64,000 bases of DNA from a virus. The stretch is taken from positions 38,083 to 102,082 of the IMG/VR virus record IMGVR_UViG_3300046535_000869. One strand, written 5' to 3'. This document shows positions 20,671 through 38,704 of the stretch, in pieces (within the stretch, counting starts at the first letter, position 1; every line of letters begins with the position of its first letter). Made by a program: the position numbers and the translations under genes. The notes under the pieces were generated by a model. The model searched no databases. It was given only the letters and a program-made list of their open reading frames with translations, and was not told the origin of the DNA.

Positions 20671-21885
20671 TTAGTAGAAGATCGGGAATGGCGCGCCGAA
20701 CTCCAGGCTCGCCCGCGACCCAGACGTGAACGCCGAGCGCGCCAGCGCCAGCGCGCAGACCGCGTCATCGTGCAGCCCGGACGGAGCCGAGTATCGCACG
20801 CCGGTCCGCGTCGACTCGAACTCGAATGCCTCCAGCTCGTCGACGATGACGCCCTCCGGGAATCGAATGGCCCGCTGCTGAATCGCGAGCGCCAGGCCCT
20901 CCATGATCTGCTGCTTCGACGATGCGCTGAACTTGAAGCCCTCGTATTTGCCAGACGGGTTGCGCCGCTGGATGGCCTCGACTACCGGGTCGCCGACGCC
21001 GGTCGAATCAATCAGCGCGCGCGCGGTCCCAGTCGCCTCCAAGATCGCCGCGACGGTTTCTCCCCACGGCTTCTGGAACCGCACGAACCGACACGCGCGC
21101 CCGTCCTCGTCGAGCGCGATGCCGACCGTCCAGTCGAAGGACTTCGCCAAGTCCCAGCCCCAGACAACCGGAGGCTCGTCCGTCAGATTCCCGACGCAGG
21201 CGCGAATGGCCGAGAGGCCGAACGGGTTGCCCGCGTCGTCCGACGGCTCCGCCAGGTACAGCTCCCGGAAGACTGCCTCTGGAAGCTGCTGCCGCGCGTC
21301 CTCCACTTCCTCGGCCGACAGGAAGCCCGCCAGGACCGCGTCGTGGCAGACGATCTTCGCGTATGACATGTTCGGCGCGTGACTCTGCGCCTTGCGCGCG
21401 ATGTGGTACGCCCAGTTCCGCCGCCCCTTCACGTTGCCGATGATCCGAACGGGACCTTCCGTCGCCGTCAGCGTCGACCGGACCGCGTGCCAGGCTTCCT
21501 CCTTGACGCGCGTCGCCTCGTCGATGACCGCCGCGTAGACGTCGTCGCCGTACAGGGAGTCGGGATGGTCCGCGCCCTTGCACCAGATGATCGCGCCGTT
21601 CTTGAGGGTCAGCGTCAGCTCGGTCTCGTTGGCATGGTAGACGCGCCGAGGGAGCGCATGCTTCAGCCGCCGGAAGACCATCTTGGCCTGGTCGCGAATC
21701 GGCGAGACCCACCAGAAGTTCTGGTGCGCCTGCCCCATCATCGCTTGCTCGGTCAGCCAGACCATGCAGCCGGTCGTCTTCCCGACCTTGGTCGAGGCTT
21801 CGACGATGCCGTAGCGGGCATCGCCGAACAGGGCCGTCAGTTGGTAGTCGGCGAGTTTAGGACGTGTGTACGTCCACGCCGTCAT
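20671..21885 (-). CDS. terL: Terminase large subunit
   Basis: The 404-residue protein has a Walker A-type segment ASTKVGKTTG (residues ~30-39) and Walker B VYAAVIDEA (117-124). A coupling region follows, then a C-terminal RNase H-like nuclease domain opening VVWGWDLAKSFDWTVG, with further acidic residues (LIDSTGVGD, near the middle, and HDDAVCALALA near the end). It drives ATP-powered packaging of DNA through the portal and cuts concatemers. It starts in an ATGA overlap with the small subunit gene and is followed by a promoter. Confidence 0.92.
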   Translation of the reverse strand: MTAWTYTRPKLADYQLTALFGDARYGIVEASTKVGKTTGCMVWLTEQAMMGQAHQNFWWVSPIRDQAKMVFRRLKHALPRRVYHANETELTLTLKNGAIIWCKGADHPDSLYGDDVYAAVIDEATRVKEEAWHAVRSTLTATEGPVRIIGNVKGRRNWAYHIARKAQSHAPNMSYAKIVCHDAVLAGFLSAEEVEDARQQLPEAVFRELYLAEPSDDAGNPFGLSAIRACVGNLTDEPPVVWGWDLAKSFDWTVGIALDEDGRACRFVRFQKPWGETVAAILEATGTARALIDSTGVGDPVVEAIQRRNPSGKYEGFKFSASSKQQIMEGLALAIQQRAIRFPEGVIVDELEAFEFESTRTGVRYSAPSGLHDDAVCALALARSAFTSGSRASLEFGAPFPIFY

Positions 21886-22280
21886 TGTGGAGAGGACAGA
21901 TTGAGCGTGAAGGCCAGCGGTTCGCCGTCAGCTCCCGCGTGCTCCAGCTTCGTCGGCGCGTCCAGGCCCAGGAGCTTCGCCCGCCGGTCCATCACCGCGA
22001 CGACCGCGCGAACGGCCTTCTCGTCGCCAGCCTTGACCTTGGGCCAGAGCGCCAGCACCAGCTTGTCGCACCGCTCCAGCTCCAGCTCGCGTAGCTTCTC
22101 GGCCTTCTTCGCCGACAGCGCCGCCAGCTCGCCGAGCGCGGCCTGGACATCCCGATACGCCGTCTGATGGTTGACGCCGAGCTGCGCGCCGATCTGCCGG
22201 TAGCGTACGCCCGCGATCCTTAGCTCCAGGGCCTTCCCGCGCCGCTCTATCGCCGCTTCCGATTGGCCAGTCTTAGGCAT
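21882..22280 (-). CDS. terS: Terminase small subunit
   Basis: Start chosen at ATG 22280 (MPKTGQSEAAIERR), 8 bases inside the end of the ParB-methylase gene. The 132-residue protein has a helix-turn-helix (GVRYRQIGAQLGVNHQTAY) followed by a long helical region (ELAALSAKKAEKLRELELER), the usual small terminase layout for binding pac or cos DNA and oligomerising. Its position immediately upstream of terL supports the call. Confidence 0.82.
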   Translation of the reverse strand: MPKTGQSEAAIERRGKALELRIAGVRYRQIGAQLGVNHQTAYRDVQAALGELAALSAKKAEKLRELELERCDKLVLALWPKVKAGDEKAVRAVVAVMDRRAKLLGLDAPTKLEHAGADGEPLAFTLNLSSPQ

Positions 22281-23679
22281 CGATCTTCTTCGCCTTCTTC
22301 CCCGTGAACGCTTCCCAGCGGTCGATGGCAACCTGCACGTACGTCGGGTCCAGCTCGATGGCGAAGACCTTCCGGGAGGTCATCTCGCCCGCGATGATCG
22401 TCGACCCGGAGCCTGAGAACGGCTCGAAGACCTCCAGGATGGCATGGTTCCGCATCGGCCGGGCCATGCACTCGACCGGCTTCTGGGTACTGTGAATCGT
22501 GTCGCCCGTCTTATCGCGCGTCTCGATATCCCAGACCGTCGAGTCCATCCCTTCAGGGAGCGCGTCGACCTCGGTGGAGCCGCACGTCTGACAGGTGTGG
22601 ACGGTCGGAACAATCGGCCAGACCGTCGACTGGTTCCGCTTCCCGCCCCAGTGACCGGTCCGGTTGTCCTTGACCGCGTAGAAGCAGGTTTCGTGCTGCC
22701 AGTGGTAGTGACCGCGCGAGAGGACGATCCGTGGCTTACGCCAGATGATCTGGCTCCTGACGCCGAACGCCGCCTTCGTCAACGAGTCCTGGACCTCCGA
22801 GCAGGCGACCGAGGCGTGCCAGACGTACGCGACATCGCCAGGGAACAGCTTCCAGACCTCGGTCCAGTCCGCCCGGTCGTCGTTCATCACCTTGCCCATG
22901 CGGTCGGACTTGTTCACGCCCGCGCGCGTCCGCCACTCCGGGTCGTACTCGACGCCGTACGGCGGGTCCGTGACCATCAGGAGAGGCTTGGCCCCAGCCA
23001 GCAGCCGGTCGACCGCCTCAGCCGACGTGGAGTCGCCGCAGAGCAGCCGGTGCGGCCCCAGCTCGAACAGGTCGCCAAGCTGGATCTCGGTGTGCTGCTT
23101 GGCCGGGACGGAGTCCGGGTCGGTTAACCCACCGTTAGGTTTCGCGTCCGCTTCGTACAGCGCCGCCAGCTCGTCCTCGTTCCAGAAGGTGCTCAGGTCG
23201 ACGCCGTCCGCCGCCAGGGCCTTCAGGACCTCGGTGTCCCAGCCGTCCGCCAGCTCAGCCGCCCGGTTGTCGAAGATGGCCAGGCGCGCCTTCTGCTCAG
23301 GCGTCAGCCCGCGCCGCCGGACCGCGATGATCGTGTTGCCGTCCGCCTCGACCACCTGGACCTTCGTCAGCCCGGCTTCGCCAGCCGCCTCGATGGTCGC
23401 GTTCCCGGCCAGGACGACGTTGTCCTCGTCGATGACGATGCTCCTGGCTGCGCCGACCTCGTTCAGGGCATCCACGATGGTGCCGACGTTGCGAGGCGTG
23501 TGCTTCCGGGCGTTCTTCGGGTCGGGAACCAGGTCGGAGATGTGGGTCGTCGGGCCGTCGCCAGCCGAGGGAGCGACCGGAGGAGGCTGCTCGGTGACGA
23601 GCTGTGTCGCGCGCGGCTTGGTCTTCTTTGGCGGAACTTCAGCCTGCAGAGCGAGATGCGCGCCGTCTGACTCGGCCAT
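22273..23679 (-). CDS. ParB-like domain fused to DNA methyltransferase
   Basis: The 468-residue protein has an N-terminal ParB/sulfiredoxin-type domain (VPDPKNARKHTPRNV, then VVLAGNATIEAA, residues ~47-130). A beta-class N4/N6 methyltransferase follows, with TDPPYGVEYD at residues 237-246 and FEPFSGSGSTIIAGE near the C-terminus. The target-recognition region carries an inserted Cys pair (CQTC). This fusion is widespread in phages and protects DNA or competes with host marking. GC-rich neighbours and coupling to terS place it in the packaging unit. Confidence 0.88.
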   Translation of the reverse strand: MAESDGAHLALQAEVPPKKTKPRATQLVTEQPPPVAPSAGDGPTTHISDLVPDPKNARKHTPRNVGTIVDALNEVGAARSIVIDEDNVVLAGNATIEAAGEAGLTKVQVVEADGNTIIAVRRRGLTPEQKARLAIFDNRAAELADGWDTEVLKALAADGVDLSTFWNEDELAALYEADAKPNGGLTDPDSVPAKQHTEIQLGDLFELGPHRLLCGDSTSAEAVDRLLAGAKPLLMVTDPPYGVEYDPEWRTRAGVNKSDRMGKVMNDDRADWTEVWKLFPGDVAYVWHASVACSEVQDSLTKAAFGVRSQIIWRKPRIVLSRGHYHWQHETCFYAVKDNRTGHWGGKRNQSTVWPIVPTVHTCQTCGSTEVDALPEGMDSTVWDIETRDKTGDTIHSTQKPVECMARPMRNHAILEVFEPFSGSGSTIIAGEMTSRKVFAIELDPTYVQVAIDRWEAFTGKKAKKIDA

Positions 23680-26460: not shown

Positions 26461-27104
26461 CTGCATCCCTCCATGAAGTCCATCCGGTCCCGCCCGGTCC
26501 AGGCCCGCTCTGACGGCCGACAGGCCGCGCACCAGCAGCCGAGCGCGTGCTGTTGGACGAGCGTCCCGTCGACGATGACCGGCATCCGAGGAGCCAGCGT
26601 GTACAGCTCCTCGACCGGCCGAAGGTCCGCGCGCGAGACGCCCAGCGGCTTCTCGTCACCGTGCTTGTCCCAGCCGCTGACCGGCCGCGCCAGGATGAGG
26701 AACTCGTCCCAGGGCAGGTAGCCCGCCGCGACCGCGTACGTCTGGTCCGGCGCGACAACCGACAGCGCGATGAAGTCCGGCTCGATCTCGCCCTCCCGGT
26801 AGAGGAGCTGGAACGGGTAGTTCATCCGGCTCTCGACCTGGACGCCGCGCACTGCAAGCTGCCGTCCATCCGGGAATCGCAGATCGCCGGAGTCGGCCCC
26901 AGCGAAGACCCGCATATCGACCGCCAGCGACAGCAGCGACCCGTAGACGACCTCGCTCAGCTTCCCGCCGAGCTGATACGCCGTCTCGACGGTCTCGTGC
27001 GCCTTGCTGATGGGCAGCGGCTTGAGCCGCCGGAACTCCTCACAGAAGGCGTTGACAGCCGCCAGGTCCTCGCCGCGAATCGGCACGATGACCTCGCTCA
27101 CCAT
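26457..27104 (-). CDS. Conserved-type phage protein, unknown
   Basis: ATG 27104 overlaps the end of the upstream methylase gene by seven bases. The 215-residue protein includes SGDLRFPDGRQLAVRGVQVE, then YREGEIEPDFIALSVV and GYLPWDEFLI, then a C-terminal region with CWCAACRPSER. The order of acidic strands (D...PD..V..E) could fit a PD-(D/E)xK nuclease fold, but I cannot assign catalytic residues. It is coupled to the dUTPase gene. Confidence 0.5.
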   Translation of the reverse strand: MVSEVIVPIRGEDLAAVNAFCEEFRRLKPLPISKAHETVETAYQLGGKLSEVVYGSLLSLAVDMRVFAGADSGDLRFPDGRQLAVRGVQVESRMNYPFQLLYREGEIEPDFIALSVVAPDQTYAVAAGYLPWDEFLILARPVSGWDKHGDEKPLGVSRADLRPVEELYTLAPRMPVIVDGTLVQQHALGCWCAACRPSERAWTGRDRMDFMEGCR

Positions 27105-27766
27105 AGCCCCGGCTGAATCTCTTGGCGGCTGATGCCGGACATCAGCGCGTCCATGTTCTCGCGGTAGCTCTTGGTCTCGGCGTCCAGCTCGTCGAGGACG
27201 CGCTCGTCGGCGTACTTGATGAACTGCTCGCCGCTGTGATCCCAGACAACCCAACAGCAGCACATCGAATCCGTGGCCCAGTCGCCGGTCGTCGGCGAGC
27301 GCTGGAACGCGAAGCGCTGGAGCCAGAGGATGCCGTTCGGCGGACGGTTCGATAGCCACGTCCGGCGGACGCCGGTCTTGAGGACTTCGTGAATGCTCGC
27401 CCGGAGCAGCATCGCGACGCCGACGCGCGAGATCTCCAGCATGTTCTCGATGATGTCGACGGCTGGCTCGAACGGCGGGTTGCTCACCGACCAGTCGACC
27501 GAGCCGAGTGTTGACTGGTTCAGTAGTGGCTTCGCTGCATCGAAGTTGTAGTCGGCCGTCCAGCGCGGGTCGAGGTCGTTCGTGACCCACGTCCGGCCAG
27601 ACGGCGAGCCGATAGACCAGTGTGGCCCATCAGCCGCGCGAGGGATGGCCCCGCTCCCGACGCACGGCTCGAAGCACCGCCCGCGTATGTCGACGTTCCT
27701 GAACAGGAACCTGACGAAGGCGCTGGGCGTCTCGTAGAACTCGAACGGGTTCGCCTCGTGGCTCAT
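27098..27766 (-). CDS. DNA adenine-type methyltransferase
   Basis: Start ATG 27766 (ATGA overlap). The 222-residue protein has YETPSAFVRFL near the start, FEPCVGSGAI at residues 32-41 (SAM-binding motif I) and SNPPFEP at 95-101 (catalytic NPPF motif IV). The gamma-like order (motif I before IV) and compact size are typical of phage N6-adenine methylases. Target sequence is unknown. Confidence 0.8.
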   Translation of the reverse strand: MSHEANPFEFYETPSAFVRFLFRNVDIRGRCFEPCVGSGAIPRAADGPHWSIGSPSGRTWVTNDLDPRWTADYNFDAAKPLLNQSTLGSVDWSVSNPPFEPAVDIIENMLEISRVGVAMLLRASIHEVLKTGVRRTWLSNRPPNGILWLQRFAFQRSPTTGDWATDSMCCCWVVWDHSGEQFIKYADERVLDELDAETKSYRENMDALMSGISRQEIQPGLW

Positions 27767-28059
27767 GCGCGGGTCCATTCCTCGGCCAACCCGGCGAGAT
27801 GTTCGAAGCGCGCGTCCTGCTTCGCCAGCCGGTTCAGCGCCTCCTGATGGTCGGCTTGTAGGCGGGCGTTCTCCTGCTGGAGACGGGAGACGTCGGCCCA
27901 TAGGAAACAGATATTGCAGTCGCAAGGCTGCTGATGGTCTCCACCCGGAGGATCAAGCCGCATCTGCTGGAGTCGCACGTCTTTATCCATCATCTTCGTG
28001 GTCTCACGAACTTGATGGAGGCGTGTGTGGGTGTCGTCAGGGGCGACGGGCTTGGTCAT
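27763..28059 (-). CDS. VAPDDT-tagged coiled-coil protein A
   Basis: The 98-residue protein starts MTKPVAPDDTHTRL, sharing its first residues with the next two genes upstream. A Cys pair (CDCNIC) precedes a coiled coil (LQQENARLQADHQEALNRL). The common phrase DVSRLQQE resembles ADVSRLREE in the neighbouring gene, so the two are related by duplication. Function unknown. Confidence 0.6.
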   Translation of the reverse strand: MTKPVAPDDTHTRLHQVRETTKMMDKDVRLQQMRLDPPGGDHQQPCDCNICFLWADVSRLQQENARLQADHQEALNRLAKQDARFEHLAGLAEEWTRA

Positions 28060-29055
28060 GATCTGGTTCGCTTTCGCGCCATATCTTCAGCCGACGCAAG
28101 CTGCTTCTCATAGACCTCGATGATGCGTTCTCTGGCTGCAAGTTCATCGCGGAGACGGGAGACTTCGGCCTCGGCTTTGGTCAGTTCTCCACGCAGGTAG
28201 CGCACGGTTTCCGCATGGCTGTCTCGTTCCTCGCGGAGACGGGAGACGTCGGCCGTTTGCTGCGAATCATGTTCACAAATGGCATCCACAAGGTCAGCCA
28301 CGTTGTCAGGCGTGGTGCGCTGAAAGTGTAAGGCCCGCGTATGCTTCTCCAGCCGGTCAATTACGTCAGCAACCACGGCTTCAGACAAGCGTGTGGGGGT
28401 GTCGTCAGGGGCGACGGGCTCAGTCATGAAATCCTCTCTCGGATGGCTCTGGCAACATCCTTAGCGAAGTTCAACCCATCTGCACAGTTCGGACACCATT
28501 GACTAAATTGCTTCTGGTCGTCCCTATGGTGCGTCTTGTGCTCCTTGTCCCCGTAGTCCTCGCACCACCTGTAAGCCAACCCTCGGAGCAGTTCCCTCAT
28601 ACAGTCCTGCGGCGGGGTGTCGTCAGGGGCGATGGGCTTGGCCGCGCCCGCACGAATCTCATCAAGCGGCCGGATGCGTCCCGCCTTCACATCATCAAGG
28701 GCGGTCACAAGTGCTTCCGCTTCTGCCTGATCGAACTGCGGCGGGGTGTCGTCAGGGGCGACGCAACTAGGGCTAGGCGCGTGTGGCAATCGACCGCCAC
28801 AACGACAAATAATGTCATCAGGGTCGGGGGTGTCGTCAGGGGCGACGGGCGGCTGACAGGTGCAGGGCCGTGTTCGATCAACGCTGATGGAATGTTCTCC
28901 CTCAACGAAGACATTGCAGCCTTCATAATGGCCGAAGGCTTCAAAGACACTCGCTGGCATCTTCGGCGCTTCGGCGTTTTCAGCATCGCACGCCGGACAG
29001 CCCCATGTCTGATACGGCTGGTCATGGTTATGTTGCGGCGGGGTGTCGTCAGGGG
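28031..29055 (-). repeat. Six dispersed in-frame copies of a VAPDDTP-coding element
   Basis: The plus-strand core gtgtcgtcaggggcgacg occurs near 28031, 28399, 28617, 28746 and 28830, with a diverged copy near 29043. Every copy reads VAPDDTP-like on the minus strand. Two copies lie at gene starts; the diverged third copy also does. Confidence 0.85.
28056..28427 (-). CDS. VAPDDT-tagged coiled-coil protein B
   Basis: The 123-residue protein starts MTEPVAPDDTPTRLSE and then has a long heptad-like region with ADVSRLREERDSH and AEVSRLRDELAAR. It overlaps the next gene by four bases. It is probably a duplicate of gene A with a longer coiled coil. Function unknown; oligomerisation is likely. Confidence 0.6.
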   Translation of the reverse strand: MTEPVAPDDTPTRLSEAVVADVIDRLEKHTRALHFQRTTPDNVADLVDAICEHDSQQTADVSRLREERDSHAETVRYLRGELTKAEAEVSRLRDELAARERIIEVYEKQLASAEDMARKRTRS

Positions 29056-29071
29056 GGCGGGCGTCAGACAT
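28424..29071 (-). CDS. Multi-VAPDDTP protein with zinc-binding Cys clusters
   Basis: The 215-residue protein begins MSDARPPDDTPPQHN and contains three further copies of the element (PPVAPDDTPDP, CVAPDDTPPQF, KPIAPDDTPPQD). Between copies lie Cys clusters: CPAC, then CTC, then CRC, and near the end CPNC. The modules look like small domains joined by a repeated linker. AKDVARAIRERI closes the protein as a helix. Function unknown. Confidence 0.6.
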   Translation of the reverse strand: MSDARPPDDTPPQHNHDQPYQTWGCPACDAENAEAPKMPASVFEAFGHYEGCNVFVEGEHSISVDRTRPCTCQPPVAPDDTPDPDDIICRCGGRLPHAPSPSCVAPDDTPPQFDQAEAEALVTALDDVKAGRIRPLDEIRAGAAKPIAPDDTPPQDCMRELLRGLAYRWCEDYGDKEHKTHHRDDQKQFSQWCPNCADGLNFAKDVARAIRERIS

Positions 29072-29625: not shown

Positions 29626-30755
29626 GCCTGCCACTCCTCGCCGGGCCGCGCCACGCCTGCCCATCCGAACCCAGACTTGCCTTGCCCCGCCTTGCCTGCC
29701 GGACACCGCCTCGCTCTTCCTGACCTCTCCCTGCCATGCCTGCCAGACCGGACGAAGCCGGGCCTAGCCTCACCACGCCTGCCGAGCCGCTCCGCGCGCC
29801 GCCTAGCCTTACCTGTCCAGGCCCTGCTTCGCCTGGCCTGCCGAACCGCGCCTAGCCCAGCGCAACCGGACCTCGCCTGGCCTGCCGCTCCGTTCTTAGC
29901 CCAGCCAAGCCAGGCCGGGTCCAGCCCAACCTCGCCTGCCGCTCCACGCCACGCGATGCCGAACCCGTCAGCGCCGCGCACCGCCACGCCTGCCGAACCG
30001 TGCCGAACCGTGCCGAACCGTGCCAGGCCCAGCCTCGCCTCGCCAGGCCCATCCTGCCGAGCCGAGCCATGCCATTCCCGGCCTCGCCTTTCCTTACCTG
30101 CCTCGCCGAACACCGACTCGCCCTGCCTGGCTTCGCCCTGCCATGCCTGCCGAACCAGACCCAGCCAGTCCTCGCCTTACCTAACCAAGCCTGCCAAGCC
30201 CGACCGCGCCATTCCCGGCCGCGCCAGGACACGCCTAGCCTGCCGAGCCGCGCGCAACCTTACCCCGCCTGTCGTTACCCAACCACTCCATACCTGGCCT
30301 GCCGAGCCTAACCTATCCACGCATGACCACGCCTTGCCCAGCATTACCGAGCCTGCCGCTCCGAACTAAACCCAGCCGCGCCCGGCCGCGCAGCGCCTAA
30401 CCAGTCCTGCCGAACCGCGCCAGACCTAGCCGACCTGACCTAGCCGAACCTGCCGAACCGCTCCATGCCCGTCCCGACTACGCCCCGCTGGGCCAGTCAT
30501 GACCACGCCTGCCGATCCGACCTCACCAGTCCAGGCCCGGCCGAGCCTCGCCCCGCCTGCCAGACCTCGCTGGACCTTGCCCTACCAGACGCCGCCTTGC
30601 CGCGCCTGCCGTTCCTTGCCTCTCCAAGCCCGAACACGCCAGACCAGGCCAGTCCTAGCCCTACCACGCCTGCCTCGCCGTGACCCGCCATGCACCGCTG
30701 TGCCACGCCTGCCGAACCAGGCCGCGCCAGTCCTAGCCCTGCCTTGCCTGCCGAG
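29626..30755 (-). repeat. Quasi-periodic 5-base array (CCNNN with 4-base anchors)
   Basis: For about 1.13 kb, plus-strand CC dinucleotides recur every 5 bases with free trinucleotides between them (minus strand GGNNN). At anchors reading CCTGCC the spacing drops to 4. GCCTGCC-type anchors start at 29626, 29655, 29694, 29738, 29777, 29836, 29880, 29934, 29988 and so on to 30746. Nearly every interval equals 5n+4 (29, 39, 44, 59, 54, 64, 49). No gene is called in this stretch: frames are open on both strands only because stop codons are rare in it. Confidence 0.9.
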
Positions 30756-30757
30756 AC

Positions 30758-31387
30758 TTAGACGCGCTCGAACCGGCCCCAGCCCAGCGCGCTCGACCGC
30801 TCCGGCCGTCCCTCGCAGATCCCGACGCCCCAACCCGCCTGGTCAATCAGCGCCAGAAGCTGGGCCTGGCTGATGAGCCGAGGGTTGAATTCGATGCGGA
30901 CCCTGAGCTGCCAGTGCGGGTAGATCGGCCGGTAGACGAGGCCGCGCGTGTTGATCCCGATGGTGACCGCGTCCTCCCGCATCGCGCCGATGGCTGGCCC
31001 GCCGTTCGGCGTCTCGATGGGAACATACGCCGCGCCAGGCGACGCCACGCTGTCGACGAAGATCGCCTGCCGGAGCGCAACCTTGGTCAGATCGTCGAAC
31101 GCCGTCGCCGCCGAGATGAGGGACTTCTTGAGCGCCGTGATCGGCGCGCACTCCCGGCCCTGCTCGTCGACGTACCGCGCCGCCAGGAACTCCGTCTCCG
31201 GCACGCGCTCCGCCTTCGCCTTCTTCGCCTTCTTCTGCTGCTTGTCCCGGATCTCCTGCTTGGCCTTCTCGGCGAACGCATGGATGACCAGAGGCGATCC
31301 GTTGCGCCCGCGCAGCGTGACCTCGATGCTCTGGATGCCGGTCGTTGCCGTGTTCTCGGTTGGTGCTGCCAGTACTGCCGTCGTCAT
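30758..31387 (-). CDS. Conserved phage protein, replication-region, unknown
   Basis: The 209-residue protein starts MTTAVLAAPTENTATTG. It includes a basic KQEIRDKQQKKAKKAKAER stretch and REDAVTIGINTRGLVYRPIY, and ends with AGWGVGICEGRPERSS...GWGRFERV. I recall this C-terminal layout from proteins in many phage replication or recombination regions with no assigned function. Its TAA is two bases from the start of the pentamer array, which therefore forms its 3' untranslated region. Confidence 0.55.
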   Translation of the reverse strand: MTTAVLAAPTENTATTGIQSIEVTLRGRNGSPLVIHAFAEKAKQEIRDKQQKKAKKAKAERVPETEFLAARYVDEQGRECAPITALKKSLISAATAFDDLTKVALRQAIFVDSVASPGAAYVPIETPNGGPAIGAMREDAVTIGINTRGLVYRPIYPHWQLRVRIEFNPRLISQAQLLALIDQAGWGVGICEGRPERSSALGWGRFERV

Positions 31388-37855: not shown

Positions 37856-38704
37856 TCATCGTCGTCGTCTCACGCCCGCGTGGACAGGCACAGCCCGCAC
37901 GCCAGGATAGGCTTTCTCGACTTGCTCCTTGAGCGCCGTGGCCTGCTTGTTGAGCTGAGGCCCCAGCGCGTCCATCAGAGGCTCGATGTCAAGATGGCAG
38001 CGCCCGGCGAGCCAGGCTTCCATCAGCAGCTTGAAGTCGAAGACCTCGGCGGACCAGGTCGTCCGCACGCTCGCGCCTGCTATCGGTGCGGGCCGACGCT
38101 CGATCTCCACAGGTGCGGCCTTAACCTGGACGGCCGCGACGGCCGCGCTCTCCTGGCGGAAGGCTTCCGCGAGCGCCGGGTTCGGCTCGGCCTCCGCGAT
38201 CCGCTCGTAGGTTGCCGCCTTCGCCGCCTGGGCCGCGCGTGCCGCCGCGTCAGCGGCCTCCTGGTCGCGTCGCTGCTTCTCCCTGGCCAGTCTGTCCTGC
38301 TCGACCTTGAACGCGCCCAGGCGTCGCGACAGGGCCTGCTTGACCGGCTCCAGCGGCTTGGCGACCTCGCCCTCCAGCGCCCGGACGGTGTTGACCAGGG
38401 TGTTCAGCGGCCCCTTGAACCTGGCGTAGTGCTCGACGATCTTGAGCTGAAGGTCTCCCAGTTCCTGGATGACCTCGAAGCCCCGCTTGTTCGCGTCCTC
38501 GTCGACGACCAGTAGCTCGGTCGCCGTCGCGATGAGGATCTCGTCGTCGATGGACAGCTCGAAGGCGTTCGCCTTGAGCGCCGCGACCAGGCCGTCGAGC
38601 GCCGCCTGGCTGGTCAGCTTGTTGTTGAGGATCGTCAGCGCGTCCGGGTCGCGCGCCACTTCGATGTCAGGTAATGCTCGGCCGTGGTCTTCCATCTTCG
38701 TCAT
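37856..38704 (-). CDS. Coiled-coil protein of recombination module
   Basis: The 282-residue protein is helical, with an Ala/Glu/Arg coiled coil (residues ~125-175). The C-terminal segment runs FDFKLLMEAWLAGRCHLDIE to AYPGVRAV. I recall similar endings in proteins sitting beside annealases and exonucleases in phages. It overlaps the exonuclease gene by 38 bases. Function unproven. Confidence 0.55.
   Translation of the reverse strand: MTKMEDHGRALPDIEVARDPDALTILNNKLTSQAALDGLVAALKANAFELSIDDEILIATATELLVVDEDANKRGFEVIQELGDLQLKIVEHYARFKGPLNTLVNTVRALEGEVAKPLEPVKQALSRRLGAFKVEQDRLAREKQRRDQEAADAAARAAQAAKAATYERIAEAEPNPALAEAFRQESAAVAAVQVKAAPVEIERRPAPIAGASVRTTWSAEVFDFKLLMEAWLAGRCHLDIEPLMDALGPQLNKQATALKEQVEKAYPGVRAVPVHAGVRRRR

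Follow-up and report, generated by a model that had tools for sequence, protein, structure and literature searches.

Short conserved DNA repeats in a phage gene array as probable boundary sequences for in-frame exchange of gene pieces

The array locus and its repeats

The window, that is the whole stretch of 64,000 nucleotides analysed here (positions 38,083 to 102,082 of IMG/VR record IMGVR_UViG_3300046535_000869), comes from a phage with a 102-kb record and 65% G+C. Three small genes on its minus strand (array genes 1 to 3, Table 1) follow one another with 4-nt overlaps (ATGA), and the stop codon of the preceding gene and the ATG of array gene 1 overlap as well (ATGTCTGA). Downstream of the array, on the same strand, come methyltransferase, helicase and terminase genes. 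The interval from the array to the terminase large subunit gene (20671-21885) holds two DNA methyltransferase-like genes, at 27098-27766 and 22273-23679, the latter fused to a ParB-like domain. From 29640 to 30760 the sequence is C-rich and of low complexity, a long run of degenerate TGCCGAACCG/GCCTGCC units in which no convincing gene is seen; a doubtful tRNA-Ala(ggc) is predicted inside it (30140-30233, minus strand). Comparison of array genes 1-3 with Pfam and PHROGs gave weak coiled-coil matches and sub-threshold PHROG matches only.

The array contains six copies of one repeat (P) and three of another (S). The P repeat is an 18-bp DNA sequence, GTCGCCCCTGACGACACC, and all of its copies in the window lie on the minus strand; four are exact, one has a single mismatch and one has three. 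By chance 0.26 matches are expected, and six copies were seen in none of 100 shuffles. A 14-mer, CCCCTGACGACACC, is common to all six. The S repeat, GCCGAMGTCTCCCGTCTCC, encodes A-E/D-VSRL and lies in array genes 2 and 3 (0.03 copies expected). An earlier note on this DNA had described nearly identical N-termini in three adjacent genes, three more copies of the element between Cys clusters in one of them and near-identity over about 18 bases. All of this was borne out, with the gene starts as listed in Table 1 and the internal copies in array gene 1. Both the S repeat and the recurrence of the repeats in other phages were absent from that note.

Table 1. Genes, repeats and cassettes of the array in the window
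Feature	Position	Strand	Description
Array gene 1	28424-29071	minus	215 aa; start MSDARPPDDTPP; MSDA-RPPDDT start form, four cassettes, joints VAPDDT/VAPDDT/IAPDDT
Array gene 2	28056-28427	minus	123 aa; start MTEPVAPDDTPT; MTEP-VAPDDTPTRL head, two AEVSRL/ADVSRL repeats, coiled-coil-like tail
Array gene 3	27763-28059	minus	98 aa; start MTKPVAPDDTHT; MTKP-VAPDDTHTRL head, ADVSRLQQENA tail
P repeat, start (R) form CGCCCCCCTGACGACACC	29042-29059	minus	18-bp match
P repeat, V form, exact	28829-28846	minus	18-bp match
P repeat, V form, exact	28745-28762	minus	18-bp match
P repeat, 1 mismatch (IAPDDT)	28616-28633	minus	18-bp match
P repeat, exact, array gene 2 start	28398-28415	minus	18-bp match
P repeat, exact, array gene 3 start	28030-28047	minus	18-bp match
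S repeat GCCGACGTCTCCCGTCTCC (ADVSRL)	28235-28253	minus	repeat match
S repeat GCCGAAGTCTCCCGTCTCC (AEVSRL)	28151-28169	minus	repeat match
S repeat GCCGACGTCTCCCGTCTCC (ADVSRL)	27879-27897	minus	repeat match
Cassette c44, Cys-rich	28847-29041	minus	single occurrence
Cassette c45, short, Cys-rich	28763-28828	minus	single occurrence
Cassette c38 (FDQAEAEALVTALDDVKAGRIRPLDEIRAGAAKP)	28634-28744	minus	97.4% identical to first cassette of G012 (L028)
Cassette c46	28416-28615	minus	holds array gene 1 stop and overlapping gene 2 ATG
3' cassette (..ELAARERIIEVYEKQLASAEDMARKR.RS stop and next start)	28056-28150	minus	90% over 115 bp to G002 (L009)

Recurrence of the repeats and architecture of the arrays

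The P and S repeats co-occur in about 45 IMG/VR phage contigs, with one locus per genome. The exact P 18-mer was found in 39 IMG/VR contig stretches, a few of which are chance matches in other contexts, and the start form CGCCCCCCTGACGACACC in 31, nearly all of them loci with the 18-mer; a scan for the S repeat recovered the P loci again together with a few additional ones. P and S also ranked top when the pooled loci were searched, unsupervised, for short words flanked on both sides by many different sequences. All the carriers are metagenomic contigs. Among 50,697 records of isolate phages the array was found in none, by blastn of the array or by tblastn with a tail protein. An exact 19-mer search of cellular genomes in GTDB gave six matches, spread over unrelated taxa such as Streptomyces, Dyella and Sutterella. 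Their number is about that expected by chance for a 19-mer, and on this count they were taken to be chance matches.

The carriers range from 39% to 66% in G+C, and the hub-masked arrays lie mostly at 0.55-0.62, with lower values in the two phages of lowest G+C. G+C-rich repeats are carried by G010 (L084-L085) at 39%, G020 (L088-L089) at 44% and G017 (L074-L078) at 48%. Outside the array the window phage shares almost nothing with the main carrier group (281 bp in all with G012), and G015 (60% G+C) and G017, with 348 bp in common altogether, share hardly more than two cassettes. The main group has its array directly upstream of the terminase genes. One phage of this group, G012, has a run of genes among its structural genes (L079:4539-9303), which includes a glycosyltransferase-like gene (L079:4539-5429) whose product could modify the virion or the host surface.

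The typical array reads M(S/T)xx-RPPDDTP, one or more variable cassettes, VAPDDTPTRL, a variable part, AEVSRL, a further variable part and ADVSRLQQENALLRRSLEMLTKQ. Cassettes are as a rule 45-500 bp long and their variable parts are often Cys-rich. The 83 cassette occurrences in 28 dereplicated arrays fell into 73 sequence clusters, from which a pool of about 430 is estimated (Chao1). The segments from one repeat to the next are open in frame in 72 of 90 cases; most of the others hold a stop and a new ATG, with the next repeat kept in the same frame, and by inspection the short MSEPDDTP copies start with their own ATG. An exception is a P copy, GGTCCCCCTGACGACACC (L028:5251-5268), which follows a stop without an obvious start and is possibly a decayed joint. 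DUF551 (PF04448) was found over the cut-off of 22 bits in the array proteins of L013 (31.7) and L023 (31.5); the window's own array is without it.

In the main group and several other phages five or more extra boundary sequences (H1-H5) lie 5' of the array, in constant order over 1-3 kb. H3b, H4 and H5 are gene starts with a ribosome-binding site; H1 (MPRTPAPLT) and H2 (DARAFVALPAL) lie inside genes. Scans for H2 and H4 returned only contigs that already carry the array, and the upstream region of the window phage is without H1-H5.

Exchange at the repeats and alternative explanations

It was found that cassettes are shared between arrays which otherwise differ. Seven shared clusters were observed, 95-100% identical, and the neighbours of the shared cassettes differ each time, except for c13 and c14, which occur as a pair in two arrays. 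The similarity of c38 to its G012 counterpart ends at the repeats on both sides. When homology blocks of at least 100 bp between arrays were examined, 30 of 34 interior ends lay within 6 bp of a repeat; with a null of random blocks forced to contain a repeat, 21% is expected and the maximum in 2000 simulations was 48%. Two contigs from different metagenomes, L029 and L044, are 100.000% identical over 3,982 bp; the identity sets in at base 2 of the S repeat and runs on until the shorter contig ends. Their arrays have no cassette in common. Essentially no cassettes are common to related phages whose flanks are 83-95% identical. Thus conserved short DNA is present at the junctions of differing modules, and the breakpoints of exchange coincide with it, both in the block ends and at the L029/L044 junction. 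On these comparisons a history of exchange at the repeats is well supported.

The data indicate that the repeats are conserved at the level of DNA. The identical 12 bases encode PDDT in 75 of the 76 copies near arrays, and synonymous codon differences amount to 0.7% in PDDT and 4.9% in the S repeat, as against 30% in the adjacent conserved tail. A codon-blind search for PDDTPTRL in 2.9 million contigs gave carriers with a few silent single-base variants, all of them outside PDDT, and one unrelated contig pair. It should be noted here that the first loci were found by an exact match to P, and its conservation is therefore partly ascertained; the S and upstream repeats, which were not used for finding these loci, are as conserved as P. 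The conserved unit is the DNA, fixed at silent positions, and VAPDDTP would then be the translation of a DNA boundary sequence.

It could be argued instead that VAPDDTP is a tag or linker kept for the function of the protein, in localisation, assembly or as a hinge, and that the variable parts simply evolve fast. PDDT is indeed constant in all copies and stands at N-termini or between small domains. Nevertheless its silent positions are fixed whereas the adjacent conserved coil varies silently, and the codons are the same in phages of 39% and of 66% G+C. The residues adjoining PDDT vary freely, V/R/I/S/N/E before it and P/T/R/H/Q/D/L after it, and cassettes that are identical turn up in different arrays, where the similarity breaks off sharply at the repeat. 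This explanation is already largely refuted and we regard it as very unlikely, and the localisation, assembly or capsid signal suggested in the earlier note is left without support. A site-specific recombination system of the integron, shufflon or serine-recombinase kind, recognising the repeats, would account for a cassette array with start, inner and end forms, a fixed orientation and a single locus per genome. On the other hand a tyrosine recombinase (PF00589) was found in none of 25 carrier records, with control genomes positive, and a resolvase or serine recombinase (PF00239) in none of 16. One recombinase would also not fit the boundary sequences P, S and H1-H5, because these are completely different from each other. 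No inverted copies were present in the records, where the repeats all lie on one strand, which leaves no shufflon-type sites, and by inspection no attC-type inverted repeat is common to the P forms and S. Such a system is therefore considered very unlikely.

All the data come from metagenomic contigs and the repeats are near the usual k-mer lengths, and assemblers could have joined strains at short repeats. Five arrays, however, recur base for base in 2-4 independent metagenome assemblies, and a second contig holds an identical copy of the window array; because of this identity the arrays cannot be regarded as assembler noise. Reading frames are kept, and shared cassettes differ from copy to copy by 1-5%, as in older exchanges, so that an artefact of assembly is highly improbable. 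Least credible is a recent and neutral duplication of a short element within one phage. Six near-identical copies inside 1.3 kb would suit it, but dozens of other phages have the same repeats at the same kind of locus with non-homologous segments between the copies, and these relatives, which show exchange, refute it. The earlier note had seen here a recurring linker spread by local duplication. The recurring linker stands; the mode of spread does not, as the segments between copies are unrelated and c38 matches an almost unrelated phage. Homologues that lack the element, as recent neutral duplication would predict, were not seen.

Proposed mechanism and comparison with known systems

From the sequence comparisons we consider it likely that the repeats are DNA boundary sequences, acting as recombination handles at which phages swap gene pieces in frame. 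One accessory locus would carry a set of nearly invariant DNA sequences of about 14-33 bp, at gene starts and in gene interiors, in a fixed frame. Matching boundary sequences of co-infecting phages would recombine, and the cassette between two of them would be swapped. Each swap would either fuse the pieces in frame or introduce a stop that overlaps a restart codon, and the product would therefore remain translatable. The outcome would be small mosaic proteins with variable, often Cys-rich N-terminal pieces, a Pro/Asp linker and a conserved coiled-coil-like tail. The swapping appears to join even quite unrelated soil phages and to build ever-different small proteins at one spot of the genome.

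The enzymes of such exchange could be those of phage single-strand annealing. Erf is present in G002, G004, G007, G011, G013, G014 and G024 (four by profile, three by similarity) and a Sak4-like AAA_24 protein in G010 and G017, thus at least nine carriers have an annealing protein of the Erf or Sak4 type. YqaJ exonuclease and NinB-like genes, both named from sequence features, adjoin Erf in several carriers. In G024 the three genes are consecutive and lie 5-6 kb upstream of the array (L107:4471-6160; G024:24471-26160); in close relatives, G012 among them, different genes take the place of this block. RecT and Rad52 annealing proteins were not found in the carriers searched, and the window phage and several other carriers are without a recognised annealing protein. 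The minimal pairing segment is reported as 23-27 bp for Red-beta and 31-34 bp for RecA (PMC3945230), and Erf may act like other phage annealing proteins on short homology (PMC2327257). The core homology of P, 14-22 bp, is below the RecA minimum and slightly below that of Red-beta, the length of which is reached with the frequent flanks. Since annealing proteins need shorter homology than RecA, exchange by them fits the length of repeat and common flank, and we infer single-strand-annealing recombination of the Erf/Sak4 type on short homology. The array products could be accessory early proteins whose diversity is under selection, for instance by host defences; of the possible roles an accessory one that favours diversity is the most likely. 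A wider proposal, which we put forward tentatively, is that of a dedicated, recombinase-free system of combinatorial gene assembly, in which unrelated phages keep a common set of in-frame joints since selection acts on recombinability itself, and take their pieces from a shared pool of hundreds of peptide cassettes, so that their accessory proteins keep changing.

Several known systems resemble the array in part. Like integron cassettes, its cassettes form an interchangeable pool at one locus whose start and end are constant; unlike them, they are parts of genes joined in frame, with joints that are themselves coding, and there is no integrase. The replacement of whole cassettes also differs from the adenine-directed point changes of a diversity-generating retroelement. 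Smug et al. 2023 (PMC10684548) described recently exchanged fragments common to unrelated phage proteins; their study dealt with protein domains and took no position on the genetic process. The arrays likewise involve fragments exchanged among unrelated phages, but in this locus of small proteins the joints can be read directly as short DNA sequences. The Ea22 proteins found in lambda and Stx phages are described in PMC10834534 as small accessory proteins of the early region with a variable part, a coiled coil and portable domains including DUF551. The placement of the array, the DUF551 in two arrays and the coiled-coil tails recall this mosaic Ea22 region. Membership of the Ea22 family was rejected on the Ead_Ea22 profile (PF13935), which matched none of 18 carriers at E<=1; in the Pfam comparison of the window's genes, array gene 2 gave E=0.16 and 13.0 bits, below the cut-off of 27. 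The parts of that paper drawn on here describe mosaic protein blocks and mention no conserved repeat in the DNA where these are joined.

Whether conserved linker sequences or random illegitimate joining give rise to phage mosaicism is an old question. The boundary or linker sequences of lambdoid phages are short conserved DNA at the junctions of exchangeable modules, proposed as targets of homologous recombination, and they cannot be found at most mosaic boundaries (PMC3029335). At the array locus the joints are visible base by base, intragenic and in frame, in phages almost without other similarity. The locus also suggests that phages of different lineages have access to a common pool of small protein pieces, a possible source of fast-changing accessory or counter-defence proteins. 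The repeats resemble the lambdoid sequences as short conserved DNA at the joints of exchangeable modules. They differ from them in being also intragenic in a fixed frame, in forming an ordered series fixed at silent sites and in being common to phages with unrelated genomes. H3b, H4 and H5 stand at gene starts, and P and S lie within open reading frames too, between exchangeable pieces; in this respect P and S partly extend the kind and are not a plain case of sequences between genes. The array system is thus an extreme and novel form of the boundary-sequence idea, at the level of populations.
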